IMG/VR virus record: IMGVR_UViG_3300018080_004265
Coordinates: 88,376 to 152,375 of that record
Reading direction: 5' to 3' (one strand)
Length of the DNA stretch: 64,000 nt
From: a virus
Under the pieces are notes generated by a model. That model had not been told where the DNA came from and did no database searches. It saw only the letters and a list, made by a program, of their open reading frames with translations. Within the stretch, counting starts at the first letter, position 1. Each line of letters opens with the position of its first letter. The position numbers and the translations under genes are program-made. Shown piece after piece: positions 9,239-63,538 of the stretch.

Positions 9239-9267
9239 TTTACAATAAAAAATTTTTGTGTTATAAT
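9239..9267 (+). promoter_or_regulatory. class B promoter (extended -10)
   Basis: TTTACA (9239-9244), 17-bp spacer, TATAAT (9262-9267) preceded by TGt. Drives the replication operon starting at 9299. Confidence 0.78.
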
Positions 9268-15608: not shown

Positions 15609-15637
15609 TTTACAAACTAAGATGTTCATGTTATAAT
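15609..15637 (+). promoter_or_regulatory. class B promoter (extended -10)
   Basis: TTTACA (15609-15614), 17-bp spacer, TATAAT (15632-15637) preceded by TGt. It starts directly after the nuclease stop and drives the SSB-like gene. Confidence 0.78.
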
Positions 15638-43600: not shown

Positions 43601-43620
43601 TTTTTTAAACTAAAAAAATG

Positions 43621-43629
43621 TGATATAAT
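43621..43629 (+). promoter_or_regulatory. extended -10 promoter
   Basis: TGaTATAAT (43621-43629) in a 53-base gap before the next operon. No clear -35 at 17 bp; the upstream T-rich tract may help. Drives the redoxin and RNR genes. Confidence 0.5.
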
Positions 43630-48842: not shown

Positions 48843-49058
48843 ATGGCGAATGTACGTTTCTACAGACTAGGCGGAGATCCAGTTGACACAGAAATCACAG
48901 AGAAGATGACAGTTAGAGCAGCACTGAAAAAGAGTGGAATCAAGTACCAAGAAGGTGATGAAATCCGGGTACAGAACAGCAAAGTTGATTTAGACACAAT
49001 GATCACTCCTGATCAGGCACAGTTTGTTACTGCGATCCCGAAAGTACGAGGAGGTTAA
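48843..49058 (+). CDS. ubiquitin-like protein with free C-terminal Gly-Gly
   Basis: A 71-residue beta-grasp-like protein. VRFYRLGG is the first strand pair, ITEKMTVRAALKKSG the helix start, DEIRVQNSKVDLDTMI the later strands, and it ends PKVRGG, the last residues of the gene. The exposed Gly-Gly needs no trimming and can be adenylated by an E1. GC is about 44% (95 of 216 bases) against the AT-rich surroundings. E2-like, JAMM and E1-like genes follow at once. A MoaD/ThiS-like sulfur carrier is the alternative. Confidence 0.8.
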   Translation: MANVRFYRLGGDPVDTEITEKMTVRAALKKSGIKYQEGDEIRVQNSKVDLDTMITPDQAQFVTAIPKVRGG

Positions 49059-49064
49059 TGAGGG

Positions 49065-49116
49065 TAATATATTGGGGGGGGTGGAACCCTTATTAGCACA
49101 CCCCCTTAATATATTA
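49065..49116 (+). other. strong hairpin between Ubl and E2-like genes
   Basis: TAATATATT (49065-49073) pairs with AATATATTA (49108-49116), and the following G-run with CCCCC (49101-49105), around a GTG/CAC inner pair. No T-run follows. It may protect the 3' end of a short, abundant Ubl message or mark an RNase cut. Confidence 0.6.
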
Positions 49117-49132
49117 TAAAAAGGAGAAAAAT

Positions 49133-49753
49133 ATGGCAGTAAAGTTAAGTGAAGCAAAAGAACAAGAAAAATATGTTGAAATTTGTGCAATGAGGCATAA
49201 AGTTCAAGTTAAAAATCTTAAAGAGAAATTAAAAAAAATTGAAAAAGAAACTGCAGATGCTAGTAAGCAATTAATGCTGTTTGTCCGCGCGGAATCTGAT
49301 ACTAGAGAACAACTTAACGCGCTCGAGGAAGGCTTTGAAAAACATAAAAATAGATATCAAGAAGAATTTAAAGCTTTAAAAGCTTTAGAGAATTATGAAC
49401 ATATTGATATAACTGAAATACATGGAAAAGCAGCTCTAATTGGTTATACAGATGAAATTCAAATTGAACATGAAGGCGATATTTATAAAATTGGTAAATT
49501 TAGAGTTACAGTTCAAGATGCACAAATTTTAATTGAAAATATAACTAATAAGAGAAATGGATGTGATCATCCTCATGTTAGAGATGGTCGACCGTGTCTT
49601 GGGGATTTAGGCTCAACTTTACCAAAATTAATGGGTAAGCATGAATACGCTTTAGTTTTTAATGTTGTTTATAAATACTTAACAAGTTATAATAAGCAAA
49701 GTCCTTATCAAAAAATTGAAGCTTGGACAAAAAGCAGAAAGAAGGCAAAGTAA
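49133..49753 (+). CDS. E2-like ubiquitin-conjugating protein
   Basis: A 206-residue protein with a coiled-coil-like N-terminal helix (about 1-85) and a UBC-like C-terminal half. The active-site segment is CDHPHVRDGRPCLGD: HPH at 146-148 takes the place of the E2 HPN motif and Cys155 that of the catalytic cysteine, spaced as in E2 enzymes. GKHEYALVFNVVYKYLTSYN follows, like the E2 C-terminal helix. It would carry the Ubl thioester. The stop overlaps the JAMM gene start. Confidence 0.75.
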   Translation: MAVKLSEAKEQEKYVEICAMRHKVQVKNLKEKLKKIEKETADASKQLMLFVRAESDTREQLNALEEGFEKHKNRYQEEFKALKALENYEHIDITEIHGKAALIGYTDEIQIEHEGDIYKIGKFRVTVQDAQILIENITNKRNGCDHPHVRDGRPCLGDLGSTLPKLMGKHEYALVFNVVYKYLTSYNKQSPYQKIEAWTKSRKKAK

Positions 49754-50316
49754 TGTTACAAGTTATTTTTAAAGAAAAGGCTATTAAAAAAATTGAATAT
49801 TTTACCCAATTGGCTCCAGGAGAAATTTCTGGATTAGGTAAAGTAGAAAAACAAGGTGATAAATTTATTATTGAAGATGTTTACTTACTTAAACAAACAA
49901 ATTCTGCAGCTTATACAGAATTAGATTCTGAAGCAATTAATGATTTTCTTATTGATATGATGAGTAAAGGAGAAGATCTTTCTAAGATAAAGTTATGGTG
50001 GCATACTCATGCTAATTTTTCTGTTTTTTGGAGTGGGACAGACAAAGATACAATAGATAAATTTGCAAATGAATCTTATTTTATTTCTTTAGTAACAAAC
50101 AAAGCTGGAGATTATAAAATTAGATTTGATTTTCACGCACCGGATAGACTGACATTTGATGATATTCCTCATGTAGTAGATTTTACAGATGATAATGATC
50201 TAAAAAGACAATGTGAAGAAGAATTTAATCAAAAAGTTAAAACTAGATTATATTGGGATGAACAGCCGCAATATGTTGAAAATAATGAACAAGAAATTGT
50301 GGAGCATGTAGTATAG
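49753..50316 (+). CDS. JAMM/JAB metalloprotease (deubiquitinase-like)
   Basis: A 187-residue protein; ATG 49753 overlaps the previous stop. Glu24 in PGEISGLG and WWHTHANFSVFWSGTD (His84, His86, Ser94, Asp97) form a full JAMM zinc site (E...HxHx7SxxD). It would cut isopeptide bonds and recycle Ubl from targets. Maturation seems unneeded because the Ubl already ends in GG. Its acidic tail is of unknown role. Confidence 0.85.
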   Translation: MLQVIFKEKAIKKIEYFTQLAPGEISGLGKVEKQGDKFIIEDVYLLKQTNSAAYTELDSEAINDFLIDMMSKGEDLSKIKLWWHTHANFSVFWSGTDKDTIDKFANESYFISLVTNKAGDYKIRFDFHAPDRLTFDDIPHVVDFTDDNDLKRQCEEEFNQKVKTRLYWDEQPQYVENNEQEIVEHVV

Positions 50317-50334
50317 CGGTAAAGGGGTTAAGCA

Positions 50335-51000
50335 ATGTCAGATGCACAAAGATTTTGGAGACAATTAGATATTGTCGATAGTGATAAATTAAATATCCCA
50401 ATTACTATTATTGGAGCCGGCGCAATTGGATCATTTACTTGTTTAGCATTAGCTAAAATGGGATGTTCTAATATTACAGTATATGATATTGATAAAATTG
50501 AAGATTATAATCTACCAAATCAATTTTATAGAGAAAGTGATGTTGGTAAATTAAAAGTAAATGGGCTTTATGATCTTATAAAAGATTTTACTGGAGTTAA
50601 AATAAATATTAAAAATGAAAAATATAAAAAACAAAATGTTGAAGGAATAGTTATATCTGCAGTTGATAATATGGAAACAAGAAAAGATTTATGGAAAAAA
50701 GTTGAATATAATCCTCAAGTAAAATTATTTGTAGATGGACGCATGGGCGCAGAAGTCATGAGAATTTATACTGTAAAACCTCATGATATAGATGAAGTAA
50801 AGATATTTGAAGATAATTTATATACCGATAAAGAAGCTGCAGAAGAAAAATGTACAGAAAAAGCAATTATATATAATGTAACTGTAATAGGAGGTTTAAT
50901 TGCTTCTAATATTAAGAAATATGTAATGGATCAAAAATATATAAAAGAAATAATATTTGATTTAAAAAATCTATATTTATTAGCGAGTGAAACAAAATAA
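50335..51000 (+). CDS. E1-like (ThiF/MoeB) activating enzyme
   Basis: A 221-residue Rossmann protein. ATP loop GAGAIGS (27-33), acidic DIDKIED (51-57) and NLPNQFYR (59-66) correspond to the E1 NLNRQ signature, though its first Arg is Asn. VISAVDNMETRKDLW follows. Cys173 in EKCTEKAI could receive the Ubl. Compact, without a rhodanese domain. It would adenylate the Ubl and pass it to the E2-like protein. Confidence 0.82.
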   Translation: MSDAQRFWRQLDIVDSDKLNIPITIIGAGAIGSFTCLALAKMGCSNITVYDIDKIEDYNLPNQFYRESDVGKLKVNGLYDLIKDFTGVKINIKNEKYKKQNVEGIVISAVDNMETRKDLWKKVEYNPQVKLFVDGRMGAEVMRIYTVKPHDIDEVKIFEDNLYTDKEAAEEKCTEKAIIYNVTVIGGLIASNIKKYVMDQKYIKEIIFDLKNLYLLASETK

Positions 51001-54856: not shown

Positions 54857-54910
54857 ATGAAAGATAAACTTTTTAGGTGGTTTATTCAATGTCAGGTCGC
54901 CAGACTATGA
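54857..54910 (+). CDS. leader peptide (17 aa) before tRNA cluster
   Basis: Two bases after the preceding stop, an ATG frame encodes MKDKLFRWFIQCQVARL. Every residue but Met, Lys and Leu is an amino acid served by tRNAs of the cluster downstream, including Trp, Cys, Ile, Phe, Val, Ala, Asp, two Gln and two Arg. GGGA lies six bases upstream. The stop sits directly before an antiterminator-like arm. Proposed to sense charged tRNA; see the attenuator entry. Confidence 0.55.
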   Translation: MKDKLFRWFIQCQVARL

Positions 54911-54966
54911 CGCCTGGTTAGTATATATTTTACTTACCAGGTGTGATATAATAGTCACACCTTTTT
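54893..54966 (+). promoter_or_regulatory. attenuator: overlapping alternative hairpins and terminator
   Basis: Arm 1 (CAGG-T-CG, 54893-54899, inside leader codons) can pair with arm 2 start (CGCCTG, 54911-54916). Arm 2 (54911-54923) pairs with arm 3 (54931-54943), 12 of 13 positions. Arm 3's end (AGGTGTGA, 54939-54946) pairs with TCACACCT (54955-54962), followed by TTTT: a terminator. 2:3 and 3:4 exclude each other. A TATAAT with upstream TGa (54944-54952) also sits in the terminator loop and could be an extra promoter. Confidence 0.65.
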
Positions 54967-54979
54967 AGTCTATATGTAC

Positions 54980-55054
54980 GGGGGAATGGTGCTAGTGGTA
55001 ACACATTTGACTTGCAATCAAAAGTCTCGGGTTCGATTCCCGGTTCCTCCACCA
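54980..55054 (+). tRNA. tRNA-Ala (TGC)
   Basis: Full cloverleaf. Acceptor GGGGGAA/TTCCTCC includes the G3-U70 pair that marks alanine. Anticodon loop CTTGCAA between TTTGA/TCAAA. Discriminator A and CCA are encoded. First tRNA after the attenuator. Confidence 0.93.
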
Positions 55055-55055
55055 G

Positions 55056-55126
55056 TGGGAGGTCGTCTAACGGCAGGACACGGGGCTTTGAACTCCGGAA
55101 TGATGGTTCGATTCCATCCCTCCCAG
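55056..55126 (+). tRNA. tRNA-Gln (TTG)
   Basis: Acceptor TGGGAGG/CCTCCCA with U1-A72 and discriminator G, as usual for glutamine. Anticodon loop CTTTGAA. CCA is not encoded (G then CAA), so it needs the CCA-adding enzyme. Confidence 0.93.
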
Positions 55127-55140
55127 CAAAGGATAATTTA

Positions 55141-55677
55141 ATGACAAAAGTTATAAATTTATTAGGTGGTTCTAGTGTTGGTAAATCAACAACAAGTTGT
55201 GGGTTGTATTATAATATGAAATTAAAGAAGATCAATGTTGAATTAGTTAGAGAATATGTAAAAATGTGGGCGTGGCTTGGAAGAGAAGTTCATCCTTATG
55301 ATCAAATATATATATCAGGGAAACAGGCTCAATTAGAGTCATCTTTATATAATAAAGTTGATTATATTATAACAGATTCTCCGTTATTATTAGGACCAAT
55401 ATATGAATTATTTTATACAAAGAATTCTATTGTATTACCATCTGTACAAAGACAATTAAATTATGCAAAAGAAAATGCAGTAGAACATATAAATTATGTA
55501 TTAGAAAGACACCAAAAATATTCTCAATTAGGAAGATTTCAAAATGAGGAATCAGCAAAAGCATTTGATAAATTTTTAATAGAATGGTTAAATAATTTAA
55601 ATATTAAATATAAAATATGTAAAGTACCCGACTTAGAAAGAGTCGATTGGATACTAAGTGATTTGAAAATTAAATAA
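55141..55677 (+). CDS. P-loop kinase-like NTPase inside the tRNA cluster
   Basis: A 178-residue protein beginning at ATG 55141; any earlier start would lie inside tRNA genes. Walker A GGSSVGKS sits near residue 9, and YIITDSPLLLG supplies the Walker B/DSP element of NadR- and dNK-like kinases. The place between tRNAs suggests a role in RNA or nucleotide phosphorylation, perhaps 5'-end repair, but the substrate is not shown. Confidence 0.65.
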   Translation: MTKVINLLGGSSVGKSTTSCGLYYNMKLKKINVELVREYVKMWAWLGREVHPYDQIYISGKQAQLESSLYNKVDYIITDSPLLLGPIYELFYTKNSIVLPSVQRQLNYAKENAVEHINYVLERHQKYSQLGRFQNEESAKAFDKFLIEWLNNLNIKYKICKVPDLERVDWILSDLKIK

Positions 55678-55680
55678 TTC

Positions 55681-55960
55681 TCCTGCTCAGTAGATACTAT
55701 GTGTCGCTCGTGCAGGAATCCCCGTTAGCCAATAGGTTAGCGGTGTAAAAAGATGTGGCAGAAGGTATTGCATTTTCTTAACATACTTGGGCCGTGACTG
55801 TCCGTTAAGAAAAGTCCTCGATCATCACGGTGCGATGGAGGTATAAGGTCACTATACAAGTCAACGGACAAGGCTCTGGCGGGTTAAGGCCTACTTAGTG
55901 GTAATAAAGTCCCGATGGGTAGCGAGTGGTTGAAAATCTTGTCAAATCCTTATCATCTTT
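55681..55960 (+). ncRNA. structured RNA of unknown class within tRNA cluster
   Basis: The 285-base gap between the kinase and tRNA-Gly holds no gene but many stems (offset 55000): TCCTGC/GCAGGA 681-686/712-717; CCGTTAGCC/GGTTAGCGG 722-730/735-743; TTTTCTTAAC/GTTAAGAAAA 773-782/804-813; CCTC plus CATC / GATG plus GAGG 816-841; CACTA/TAGTG 850-854/896-900. TGTCCGTT (799-806) can instead pair with AACGGACA (863-870), excluding the third stem, so two folds compete. GC is above the coding background. Confidence 0.6.
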
Positions 55961-55962
55961 AA

Positions 55963-56038
55963 GCGGGATTGGTGTTAATGGCTAGCACGCCTGGCTTCCA
56001 ACCAGGAGGTATCGGTTCGAATCCGATATCCCGCTCCA
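55963..56038 (+). tRNA. tRNA-Gly (TCC)
   Basis: Acceptor GCGGGAT/ATCCCGC, anticodon stem CCTGG/CCAGG with loop CTTCCAA, discriminator U, CCA encoded. Confidence 0.93.
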
Positions 56039-56039
56039 A

Positions 56040-56112
56040 GGGGATGTAGACAAGTGGTCAAGTCATTGCCTTTTCAAGGCGACATTCGCAGGTTCGAATC
56101 CTGTCATCCCTA
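56040..56112 (+). tRNA. tRNA-Glu (TTC)
   Basis: Acceptor GGGGATG/CATCCCT (first pair G-U), anticodon stem TTGCC/GGCGA with loop TTTTCAA. Discriminator A; CCA not encoded. Confidence 0.9.
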
Positions 56113-56115
56113 CAG

Positions 56116-56189
56116 CGGAGTGTAGCTCAATTGGTTAGAGCGTTCGACCGATAATCGAGAGGTAGATGGTTCGACTCCATCCACTCCGA
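56116..56189 (+). tRNA. tRNA-Ile (GAT)
   Basis: Acceptor CGGAGTG/CACTCCG, anticodon stem TTCGA/TCGAG with loop CCGATAA. Discriminator A followed by CCG, so full CCA is not encoded. Confidence 0.9.
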
Positions 56190-56197
56190 CCGAAATA

Positions 56198-56273
56198 GGG
56201 AGTATGGTGTAATTGGTTAATAACATCTTTGGCTCCAAACCAAAGGATTAGAGTTCGAATCTTTATACTCCCG
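56198..56273 (+). tRNA. tRNA-Trp (CCA)
   Basis: Acceptor GGGAGTA/TACTCCC, anticodon stem TTTGG/CCAAA with loop CTCCAAA; discriminator G as in tryptophan tRNAs. CCA absent (GCA). Reads UGG only; no sign of UGA recoding. Confidence 0.93.
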
Positions 56274-56281
56274 CAAAGAAT

Positions 56282-56353
56282 GGTCCCATAGTGTAGTGGT
56301 CAGCACGCCACTCTGTCACAGTGGTAGCACGGGTTCGAGTCCCGTTGGGACCG
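56282..56353 (+). tRNA. tRNA-Asp (GTC)
   Basis: Acceptor GGTCCCA/TGGGACC, anticodon stem CCACT/AGTGG with loop CTGTCAC, discriminator G. CCA absent (GCAT). Confidence 0.93.
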
Positions 56354-56358
56354 CATAG

Positions 56359-56433
56359 AGCTCTGTAGCTCAGTGGAATAAGAGCAGCTCCCTACGAAGG
56401 AGAAGGTCGTAGGTTCGAATCCTATCAGGGCTG
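56359..56433 (+). tRNA. tRNA-Arg (ACG)
   Basis: Acceptor AGCTCTG/CAGGGCT, anticodon stem GCTCC/GGAGA (outer pair mismatched) with loop CTACGAA. ACG normally needs A34 to inosine. CCA absent. Confidence 0.88.
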
Positions 56434-56439
56434 CAAAGA

Positions 56440-56514
56440 GGGTCTGTAGCTCAGTGGTAGAGCGCTAGCTTGAAGCGCTAGGCGTTGGAAGTTCGATTCT
56501 TTCCAGGCCCACCA
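56440..56514 (+). tRNA. tRNA-Phe (GAA)
   Basis: Acceptor GGGTCTG/CAGGCCC. Anticodon stem CTAGC/GCTAG with loop TTGAAGC puts GAA at 34-36. Position 37 is G, unusual for bacterial Phe tRNAs. Discriminator A and CCA are encoded. Confidence 0.8.
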
Positions 56515-56515
56515 A

Positions 56516-56593
56516 GTGGCTGTAGCTCAGTCTGGACAGAGCATCGGCCTTCTAAGCCGAATGTCGCAGGTTCAAATCCTGCCAGCCACGCCA
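56516..56593 (+). tRNA. tRNA-Arg (TCT)
   Basis: Acceptor GTGGCTG/CAGCCAC, anticodon stem TCGGC/GCCGA with loop CTTCTAA, discriminator G, CCA encoded. Serves AGA, the favoured Arg codon in this AT-rich genome. Confidence 0.93.
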
Positions 56594-56594
56594 G

Positions 56595-56666
56595 GGCGGG
56601 GTAGCCAAGTGGTAAGGCAGCGGTCTGCAAAACCGTTCATCGGAGGTTCAAATCCTCTCCCCGCCT
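56595..56666 (+). tRNA. tRNA-Cys (GCA)
   Basis: Acceptor GGCGGGG/CCCCGCC, anticodon stem GCGGT/ACCGT with loop CTGCAAA, discriminator U as in cysteine tRNAs. CCA not encoded. Confidence 0.92.
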
Positions 56667-56671
56667 CATAG

Positions 56672-56747
56672 AGCCCTTTAGCTCAGTTGGGAGAGCGCTT
56701 CCCTTACAAGGAAGATGTCGGCGGTTCAAACCCGTCAAGGGCTACCA
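56672..56747 (+). tRNA. tRNA-Val (TAC)
   Basis: Acceptor AGCCCTT/AAGGGCT, anticodon stem CTTCC/GGAAG with loop CTTACAA, discriminator A, CCA encoded. Last tRNA of the cluster. Confidence 0.93.
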
Positions 56748-57493: not shown

Positions 57494-57523
57494 ATGTACC
57501 TTTAAAAGAAAAAATGTTATAAT
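57494..57523 (+). promoter_or_regulatory. class B promoter (extended -10)
   Basis: ATGTAC/TGTACC (57494-57500) with a 17-18 bp spacer and TATAAT (57518-57523) preceded by TGt. Drives the operon ending with the second E1-like gene. Confidence 0.72.
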
Positions 57524-59528: not shown

Positions 59529-60257
59529 ATGAAAAGATTTGATCAAAATCTTAAAACAAAGTTGATCGGCAATAAAGGACAACTTAAGCTAAATAAGGCC
59601 AAAGTTTGTTTAGTTGGTCTAGGCGGCACAGGTTGTCCTATTTTTGTCTATTTACATAATGCTGGTGTAGAAAATATTTGTTCAGTCGATGATGATAGGG
59701 TTGAAGAATCAAATTTAAATAGACAGTTTATATATAATGAAGATGATGTTGGGAATAAAAAAGTAGATGTTATTCTTGAAAAATATGGTCATAATATGAA
59801 ATTCGATGGAAAATCTATGAAAGGACAAATAAGCGTAGTTGAAAATAGTTTTCAAGGATGGTTAGAATTTTTAAAAAAACATGATGAAAATCCTCCAAAA
59901 TTTGATTTAATAATAGAAGCAACTGATAACTTTGAGACAAAAAAAGCGGTGCAAGAATTTGCTTTCAAACAAAGTATTCCATGTTTAATATGTGGAGTTC
60001 ATGGCTATCAAATAAATATGTTTGCATGGCATCCTAAATATTCTAAAAATAGATATGCAGATTTAATTAATTGTGATGACAATATATCTGAAAAATCAGA
60101 AGGAACATTTCCTACAGCTACTGGAATACTTGGAACTCTTGTTGCAAATGAAGCCATAAAAATATTATTAGAATTACATGAGAAAGTAATTTATAATAGA
60201 ATATGGTTTTATGATATTCTTCATAATCAATTAAAAGATCTTAAAATTTCAGTTTAA
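59529..60257 (+). CDS. second E1-like (ThiF/MoeB) activating enzyme
   Basis: A 242-residue Rossmann protein with textbook E1 motifs: VGLGGTGCPIFVYL, SVDDDRVEESNLNRQFIY, DLIIEATDNFETK and the closing GTFPTATGILGTLVANEAIK. It lacks zinc CxxC pairs. It is not closely like the E1 at 50335, whose NLNRQ motif has diverged. Its partner is unknown; small upstream proteins are candidates. The last bases carry a promoter. Confidence 0.85.
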   Translation: MKRFDQNLKTKLIGNKGQLKLNKAKVCLVGLGGTGCPIFVYLHNAGVENICSVDDDRVEESNLNRQFIYNEDDVGNKKVDVILEKYGHNMKFDGKSMKGQISVVENSFQGWLEFLKKHDENPPKFDLIIEATDNFETKKAVQEFAFKQSIPCLICGVHGYQINMFAWHPKYSKNRYADLINCDDNISEKSEGTFPTATGILGTLVANEAIKILLELHEKVIYNRIWFYDILHNQLKDLKISV

Positions 60258-62391: not shown

Positions 62392-62790
62392 ATGAAACAT
62401 TTTGAAACAAATAAATTACATATAAAAAGTTGGTGTAACGAACCAGAAGAAGGGGCATTAAAACAAGCTGAGAATTTAGCTCAATTGCCATTTGCTTTTC
62501 ATCATATTGCTTTAATGCCTGACACCCATCAAGGATATGGTATGCCAATTGGTGGAGTATTAGCTACAGAAGGAGTAGTTGTTCCAAATGCTGTAGGGGT
62601 AGATATTTTTTGTTCAGTTAGTGCATTAAAAACAAACATAAAAGCATCAGATTTATCTGTGGAAAAATTAAAAGAAATAATGGGAGAAATAAGAAAGCAA
62701 GTTCCTTTTGGTGAAGGTAATTACCCAGAGTATGATAAAGAAATTGGAGAATATTTAGAAAATTTAGAAAAAGAGATGAATAATGAGTAA
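62392..62790 (+). CDS. rtcB: RtcB RNA ligase, N-terminal half
   Basis: A 132-residue fragment with FHHIALMPDTHQGYGMPIGG and VVVPNAVGVDIFCSVSA, the metal-binding and catalytic-cysteine region (GVDIxC) of RtcB, which joins RNA 3'-phosphate or 2',3'-cyclic phosphate ends to 5'-OH ends. It stops after EKEMNNE where a homing endonuclease begins. The remainder starts at 63535 in the same reading frame. Confidence 0.85.
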   Translation: MKHFETNKLHIKSWCNEPEEGALKQAENLAQLPFAFHHIALMPDTHQGYGMPIGGVLATEGVVVPNAVGVDIFCSVSALKTNIKASDLSVEKLKEIMGEIRKQVPFGEGNYPEYDKEIGEYLENLEKEMNNE

Positions 62791-63538
62791 ATATAAATTA
62801 AATAAAAGATGTATAAAATGTAATAAATTACTTTTAGATAAAAATAAAAGTGGCTTTTGTAATTCTCATAGAGATAGAACTGGATCAAATAATTCATTTT
62901 TCGGGAAACATCATTCAAAAGAAACAATTGATGGAATAAAGGCAAAGAATCGTAAAAAAAGTAAAGAAAATTGGAAAAAAAAAGAATATAGAGATAAAGT
63001 TATAAAAGGCACATCTAAACCAAGAAAAGAATCTTTTAAGAAAGAACAAAGCGATAGAATAAAATTGTGGTACAAAGATAATCCAAAACAAAAAGATATT
63101 CGTTCAATACATATGAAAAAGTCTTGGAAAAATGGATTAATTCCTAAAAGTAAACACACACAAATGAATAAAAGTAAAATACAAAATGAATTTTTTAATG
63201 ACATTAAAGATATTTATCCATTTGTTAGTGATAATACAACAATAAAATACGACAGTAAATGGTTATTCCCAGATATTTCTATTATTAAAGATGGAATTAT
63301 TGTAGAGTTTTTAGGTGACTATTGGCATGCAAATCCAAATAAATATAAAGAAAATGATATTGTTCATCACGAACTAACAGCATTGGAAATTTGGAAAAAT
63401 GATGAAAGAAGAAAATCAACTTTTGAGAGACTTGGGTTTTTTGTTTATACTGTTTGGGAAAGTGATTATAAGAAAGACAAAAGGCATGTATTGAATACAT
63501 TTGATTCAATTTTAAATTGGGAAGGATGTTCTATATGA
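62783..63538 (+). CDS. homing endonuclease inserted in rtcB
   Basis: A 251-residue endonuclease. A short zinc-like RCIKCNKLLL region and HNSxxGKHHSKETIDGIKAK-type NUMOD3 repeats precede a nuclease core with KWLFPDISIIKDGIIVEFLG (PD...ExxG) and GFFVYTVWESDY, resembling Vsr-like endonucleases. It overlaps the two rtcB halves at both ends (8 and 4 bases). Direct repeats ATGAAT (62776 and 63535) flank it. Confidence 0.82.
   Translation: MSKYKLNKRCIKCNKLLLDKNKSGFCNSHRDRTGSNNSFFGKHHSKETIDGIKAKNRKKSKENWKKKEYRDKVIKGTSKPRKESFKKEQSDRIKLWYKDNPKQKDIRSIHMKKSWKNGLIPKSKHTQMNKSKIQNEFFNDIKDIYPFVSDNTTIKYDSKWLFPDISIIKDGIIVEFLGDYWHANPNKYKENDIVHHELTALEIWKNDERRKSTFERLGFFVYTVWESDYKKDKRHVLNTFDSILNWEGCSI

Follow-up and report, generated by a model that had tools for sequence, protein, structure and literature searches.

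Phage tRNAs are thought to counter the cleavage of host tRNAs, and the control of their expression has been little studied. We here asked how transcription would enter the tRNA cluster of an uncultivated virus, immediately upstream of which lie a short open frame and overlapping hairpins that an initial annotation had read as a leader peptide and attenuator sensing the tRNAs under its own control. The window, as the term is used below, is the whole 64,000-nt stretch of DNA analysed, corresponding to positions 88,376-152,375 and thus to the end part of a 152,375-base virus record.

Layout of the tRNA locus and its relatives

The window has a G+C content of 28%, and one strand carries nearly all genes of the record. 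Using ARAGORN, we found 12 tRNAs for 11 amino acids (A, Q, G, E, I, W, D, R, R, F, C and V) from 54980 to 56747, with the 17-codon frame present just ahead of them, as had been proposed (Table 1). This frame lies at the 3' end of a densely packed operon, and its ATG follows the stop of the last, 155-aa gene by only 2 nt. That it might instead encode the C-terminus of the upstream protein was considered and rejected, because the weak homologues of that protein found with tblastn in a 176 kb faecal phage and in Aeromonas phages stop at the same place.

Table 1. Predicted features at the start of the tRNA cluster (window coordinates).
Feature	Position	Strand	Basis and remarks
Upstream gene, 155 aa	54387-54854	+	Last gene of upstream operon; stop 2 nt before short frame
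17-codon open frame, MKDKLFRWFIQCQVARL*	54857-54910	+	Sequence; translation putative
Local hairpin in frame, GTCAGGTC/GACTATGAC	54891-54911	+	Folding, -8.6 kcal/mol; compatible with 2:3
Hairpin 2:3, CGCCTGGTTAGTA...TACTTACCAGGTG	54911-54943	+	12/13 pairs including one G-U, -16 kcal/mol; invades terminator base
Intrinsic terminator, AGGTGTGATATAATAGTCACACCT then T-run	54939-54967	+	Hairpin 54939-54962 (3:4), 9 pairs, -12.4 kcal/mol, then TTTTT
Extended -10 element, TGTGATATAAT	54942-54952	+	Within terminator hairpin; no good -35
tRNA-Ala(TGC) and tRNA-Gln(TTG), cluster start	54980-55127	+	ARAGORN
AAA_28-type P-loop protein, 178 aa, possibly nucleotide kinase	55141-55677	+	Between second and third tRNA
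Ten further tRNAs: Gly, Glu, Ile, Trp, Asp, Arg, Phe, Arg, Cys, Val	55963-56747	+	ARAGORN

Between the P-loop gene and tRNA-Gly is a gap of 285 nt (55678-55962) having 45% G+C, as compared to 28% for the genome, and a modest folding z-score of -1.9, in which neither an Rfam match nor, using ARAGORN, a tmRNA or intron-split tRNA was found. By analogy with the T4 species 1 and 2 RNAs, likewise located at the tRNA cluster of that phage, this gap may encode a stable non-coding RNA. Elsewhere in the window, an apparent ubiquitin-like modification system is encoded at 48843-51000 and 59529-60257, comprising a 71-aa small protein and two ThiF/E1-type proteins (Pfam ThiF) together with possible E2-like and JAB-like proteins, the latter two recognized by eye and having no Pfam match. 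At 62392-63538, only some 110 aa of an RtcB RNA ligase are encoded before the frame passes into that of a NUMOD3-motif protein, suggestive of a homing-endonuclease gene located, together with its intron or intein, inside rtcB.

Relatives of the locus were sought among viral contigs using the 155-aa protein, the P-loop protein (alone and as an alignment), the CCA transferase, the ClpB-like protein, the terminase and two DNA patterns as queries, and among genome contigs using the P-loop protein; no contig covering the locus was found in either collection. Relatives of the terminase with 76-100% identity are present as fragments in IMG/VR, and the phage therefore has close but fragmentary kin. 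The nearest relatives of the P-loop protein (47-50% identity) had no tRNAs in the stretches that were read, and 27 matches to the pattern CCTGGT-N-ACCAGGTGTGA looked like chance and were discarded as relatives. Two different phage contigs, L226 (10379-10400) and L229 (7992-8013), share GGTGTGATATAATTGTCACACC, a dyad around TATAAT that is near-identical to that of the window but lacks a T-run and is placed at the end of a gene, ahead of a new unit; the element is possibly a palindromic promoter that recurs.

The short frame and the folding of its transcript

The residues encoded by the short frame agreed with the initial annotation, with 11 consecutive residues and 12 of 16 in total being served by the tRNAs of the cluster, and with only Gly and Glu of the cluster's set being absent. 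A run of 11 occurred in 0.13% of composition-matched shuffles (p ~0.0013) and a total of 12 of 16 had p ~0.03, both statistics having been picked after the sequence had been seen. Among 2,262 short ATG frames in the record, such a run was reached by five, two of which were the short frame itself read from two starts. The agreement did not extend fully to the level of codons, where only 10 of 16 are read by the cluster (p ~0.05) and the longest run is 8 (p ~0.003, the statistics again being post hoc), with GTC and GCC being poorly matched by the cluster anticodons UAC and UGC. The Shine-Dalgarno match of the ATG is middling (-4.0 kcal/mol) and equalled by 20% of random ATGs.

Further downstream, the stop codon (54908-54910) is indeed placed directly 5' of arm 2, which begins at 54911. 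When 54857-54970 was folded, it did so better than all of 200 dinucleotide shuffles (z -4.2), and the proposed 2:3 and 3:4 hairpins were both predicted, the former having its stated 12 of 13 pairs if one G-U pair is counted and the latter being a G+C-containing hairpin with an immediate T-run, as expected for an intrinsic terminator. Frame, 2:3 and terminator with its T-run together lie 12-17 nt ahead of the tRNA genes. The 1:2 hairpin of the initial annotation, however, proved weak, having at best 6 pairs of which two are G-U, and the leader forms the local hairpin at 54891-54911 instead. Scanning the whole 152 kb record, we found the segment at 54939-54967 to be its single strong intergenic hairpin with a T-run, intrinsic terminators being almost absent elsewhere.

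Hairpins 2:3 and 3:4 overlap by only ~5 nt, with the conflict located at the base of the terminator. To mimic ribosome positions, the RNA was folded in silico with different 5' cut-offs. With a ribosome at the stop codon, covering arm 2, the terminator pair probability was ~1, whereas with a ribosome edge at 54893 or 54902 the 2:3 hairpin dominated and terminator pairs formed at 1-9%; with the edge at 54908, 2:3 persisted and the upper terminator pairs reformed. These folds switch in the manner proposed for a stalled ribosome, but 2:3 also dominated with no ribosome at all, leaving the terminator base mostly open. The untranslated state is therefore not the 1:2 plus 3:4 combination of a trp-type attenuator and, because 1:2 is weak, read-through would be favoured over termination in the absence of translation. 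What stood of the proposed trp-type geometry was the mutual exclusion of 2:3 and 3:4 at the terminator base, but not a useful 1:2, nor does the position of the frame at the 3' end of an operon fit that geometry.

The mean basal pairing of the terminator was 0.30 with the native upstream sequence, as compared to 0.95 with shuffled upstream DNA, and 7 of 500 shuffles gave values as low; when random 82-mers from the genome were placed upstream, 6 of 500 weakened the base as much. The terminator base is thus undermined by its own upstream sequence above chance.

The promoter candidate and the readings of the locus

The initial annotation had overlooked an extended -10 promoter within the terminator. 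The element TGTGATATAAT is a perfect match to TRTGNTATAAT, the extended -10 of sigma-70/SigA, and ends 27 nt before the first tRNA; only 4 of 304,650 positions in the record, counting both strands, score as high. We estimate the probability of having one of these four sites within a 45-nt stretch by chance at ~6e-4. The predicted start, at about 54958-54960, would lie past every part that could serve in sensing and some 20 nt short of tRNA-Ala. TRTGNTATAAT occurs in total six times, about as expected for such an AT-rich genome, and the site stands out only by its intergenic, coding-strand position. The sequence TGTGNTATAAT has four occurrences in the record, all on the coding strand and three of them intergenic, with the two other intergenic sites (9257 and 43619) being followed by ribosome-binding-like sequence. 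At a spacing of 16-18 nt the -35 position is occupied by TATATT (at 17 nt), such an element being optional with an extended -10, and when -35 and -10 are scored together the site drops to rank ~22 or lower. Other probable promoters, all intergenic and before genes and either of TTTACA-17-TGTTATAAT-like or of extended -10 type, were noted at 9257-9267, 15629-15637, 43619-43629 and 57515-57523.

The locus thereby presents three unlikely coincidences, these being the promoter (~6e-4, an estimate), the residue run (~1e-3, post hoc) and the interference with the terminator (~1e-2). We consider it somewhat better than even, at a probability of about 0.55, that a terminator with an embedded promoter marks the boundary between the upstream operon and the tRNA operon. 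Transcripts of the upstream operon would then reach the terminator and mostly end there, and host RNA polymerase would start anew from the extended -10 with little or no use of a -35, giving a transcript that spans the first two tRNAs (Ala and Gln), the P-loop gene and the remaining ten tRNAs, the short 5' leader of which would be trimmed by RNase P. Hairpin 2:3 would weaken the terminator and thereby allow part of the upstream transcripts to extend into the tRNAs, and the short frame would be incidental or, at most, tune this read-through by way of ribosomes covering arm 2. We infer the working terminator, the working promoter and its start site from the sequence. The boundary is ranked ahead of tRNA sensing and of coupling to translation because a promoter is a priori far more probable and provides a separate transcript for the tRNAs; if this is true, the tRNAs need no sensor. 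Counting against the boundary are the poor -35 with the low rank in the full score, the near absence of terminators elsewhere in the record, which leaves the need for one here unexplained, and the presence of 2:3, a hairpin that weakens the terminator and for which a plain insulator would have no need. Directly observed are the sequence features, how rare they are in the genome, and the competition between folds in silico.

The attenuator originally proposed is unlikely. In that mechanism, scarcity of Phe, Arg, Trp, Ile, Gln or Cys tRNA (and perhaps of Val and Ala tRNA) would stall the ribosome within the frame, whereupon 2:3 would form and transcription continue into the tRNAs, and otherwise the stop codon would be reached, arm 2 covered and the terminator formed. 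The stop codon immediately 5' of arm 2, the switch between predicted folds, the disruption of the terminator above chance, the post hoc runs of 11 residues and 8 codons and the singularity of this strong intergenic terminator in the record would all suit such a device, and its trigger would make sense since a role of phage tRNAs in countering the cleavage of host tRNAs has been reported (PMC10264068, PMC11555353). The strong extended -10 downstream of all sensing parts would, however, feed the tRNAs past the attenuator, and the frame is placed at the end of an operon with a middling ribosome-binding site. Its mixed codons for nine amino acids would moreover lower sensitivity (PMC1183508), GTC and GCC fall outside the codons of the Val and Ala tRNAs in the cluster, the weak 1:2 would let untranslated RNA read through, and no phage tRNA attenuator was found in the literature searches made. 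The anatomy of an attenuator that would act on read-through from the upstream operon nonetheless remains. It is conceivable, if improbable, that a frame of many codons at the end of an operon lets depletion of any of several host tRNAs cause read-through into the phage tRNAs, atop a basal promoter in the terminator, thereby acting as a general sensor of tRNA damage. Were translation of the short frame to control the terminator, the phage would be able to detect damage to tRNAs and to respond to it.

The same folds could serve a terminator that is coupled to translation with no sensing of tRNAs, which we likewise regard as improbable. Ribosomes ending the upstream gene would re-initiate 2 nt further on, complete the short frame and mask arm 2, so that a well-translated operon leads to termination and a poorly translated one to read-through, the encoded residues being coincidental; the position of the ATG, the contrast between the ribosome-free fold (2:3) and the fold with a ribosome at the stop codon (terminator), and the interference at the terminator base agree with this. 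Its dependence on a putatively translated frame with a Shine-Dalgarno match no better than that of 20% of random ATGs, and the bypass offered by the internal promoter, argue against it. We hold it to be quite unlikely that the overlapping dyads at 54911-54943 and 54939-54962 act at the level of DNA, as a putative site for a phage or host regulator at the -10 of the tRNA promoter. The dyad is symmetric around TATAAT, and unrelated phage contigs (L226/L231 and L229/L230) carry GGTGTGATATAATTGTCACACC at a gene end just before a new unit and without a T-run; here, however, a T-run starts exactly where the dyad ends, which resembles a terminator, the dyad is absent from the other promoters of this phage, and a few chance matches are expected in a collection of such size. 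Least probable is an element for RNA processing or stability, in which the 13-bp hairpin would be cut by RNase III, or would shield the 3' end of the upstream mRNA and free the tRNA precursor. Stable hairpins do recur beside phage tRNA clusters, but as an RNase III site 2:3 is short, the T-run is that of a terminator, and nothing specific speaks for processing.

Comparison with other phages and known systems

As a baseline, phage records were examined at 16 further sites of tRNA clusters or sub-clusters, taking the 120 nt upstream and a cut-off of -9 kcal/mol or better. Terminator-like hairpins were found at 4 of the 16, as compared to 0.23 expected from shuffles, and a terminator directly ahead of phage tRNAs is therefore a recurring and ordinary arrangement. 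At the T4 tRNA-Gln, the tRNA-Trp of Stenotrophomonas phage Mendera and in Acinetobacter phage Berthold, a hairpin with a T-rich tail lies 7-11 nt before the tRNA, an arrangement resembling the one described here, and in phage G001 the tRNA cluster is preceded at 61 nt by a strong terminator, the two being separated by sequence that includes a TTGACA hexamer. The hairpins of T4, Berthold and G001, in contrast to that of the window, do not have their base weakened in this way by an upstream arm, and that of Mendera is partly weakened.

With the E. coli trp and Salmonella his attenuators the locus shares a short frame, a stop codon beside arm 2 and the competition between 2:3 and 3:4, but it differs from them in having no useful 1:2, mixed codons for nine amino acids, a frame at the end of an operon and a strong -10 inside the terminator. 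Absence of translation leads to termination via 1:2 in trp (PMC1183508), whereas here it leads to 2:3, and in models of attenuation control depends on a single regulatory codon being highly represented (PMC1183508). The T-box riboswitch (RF00230) is alike in principle, having a tRNA-responsive logic of terminator and antiterminator, and neither it nor other Rfam families matched the region at curated or relaxed thresholds.

Promoters next to tRNA genes or terminators have precedents. T4-like phages are reported to have early promoters 5' of their tRNA genes (PMC1524935), and in Kayvirus 515A1 RNA-seq identified late promoters that lack a -35 and have a long -10, TGTTATATTA, as well as an early promoter immediately past a terminator, t97/p98 (PMC7698491). 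The putative -10 of the window is placed within the terminator hairpin, whereas that of 515A1 comes after it; shared with 515A1 (PMC7698491) are a -10-dominated promoter directly at a terminator and, as a candidate in the window, non-coding RNA beside the tRNA genes.
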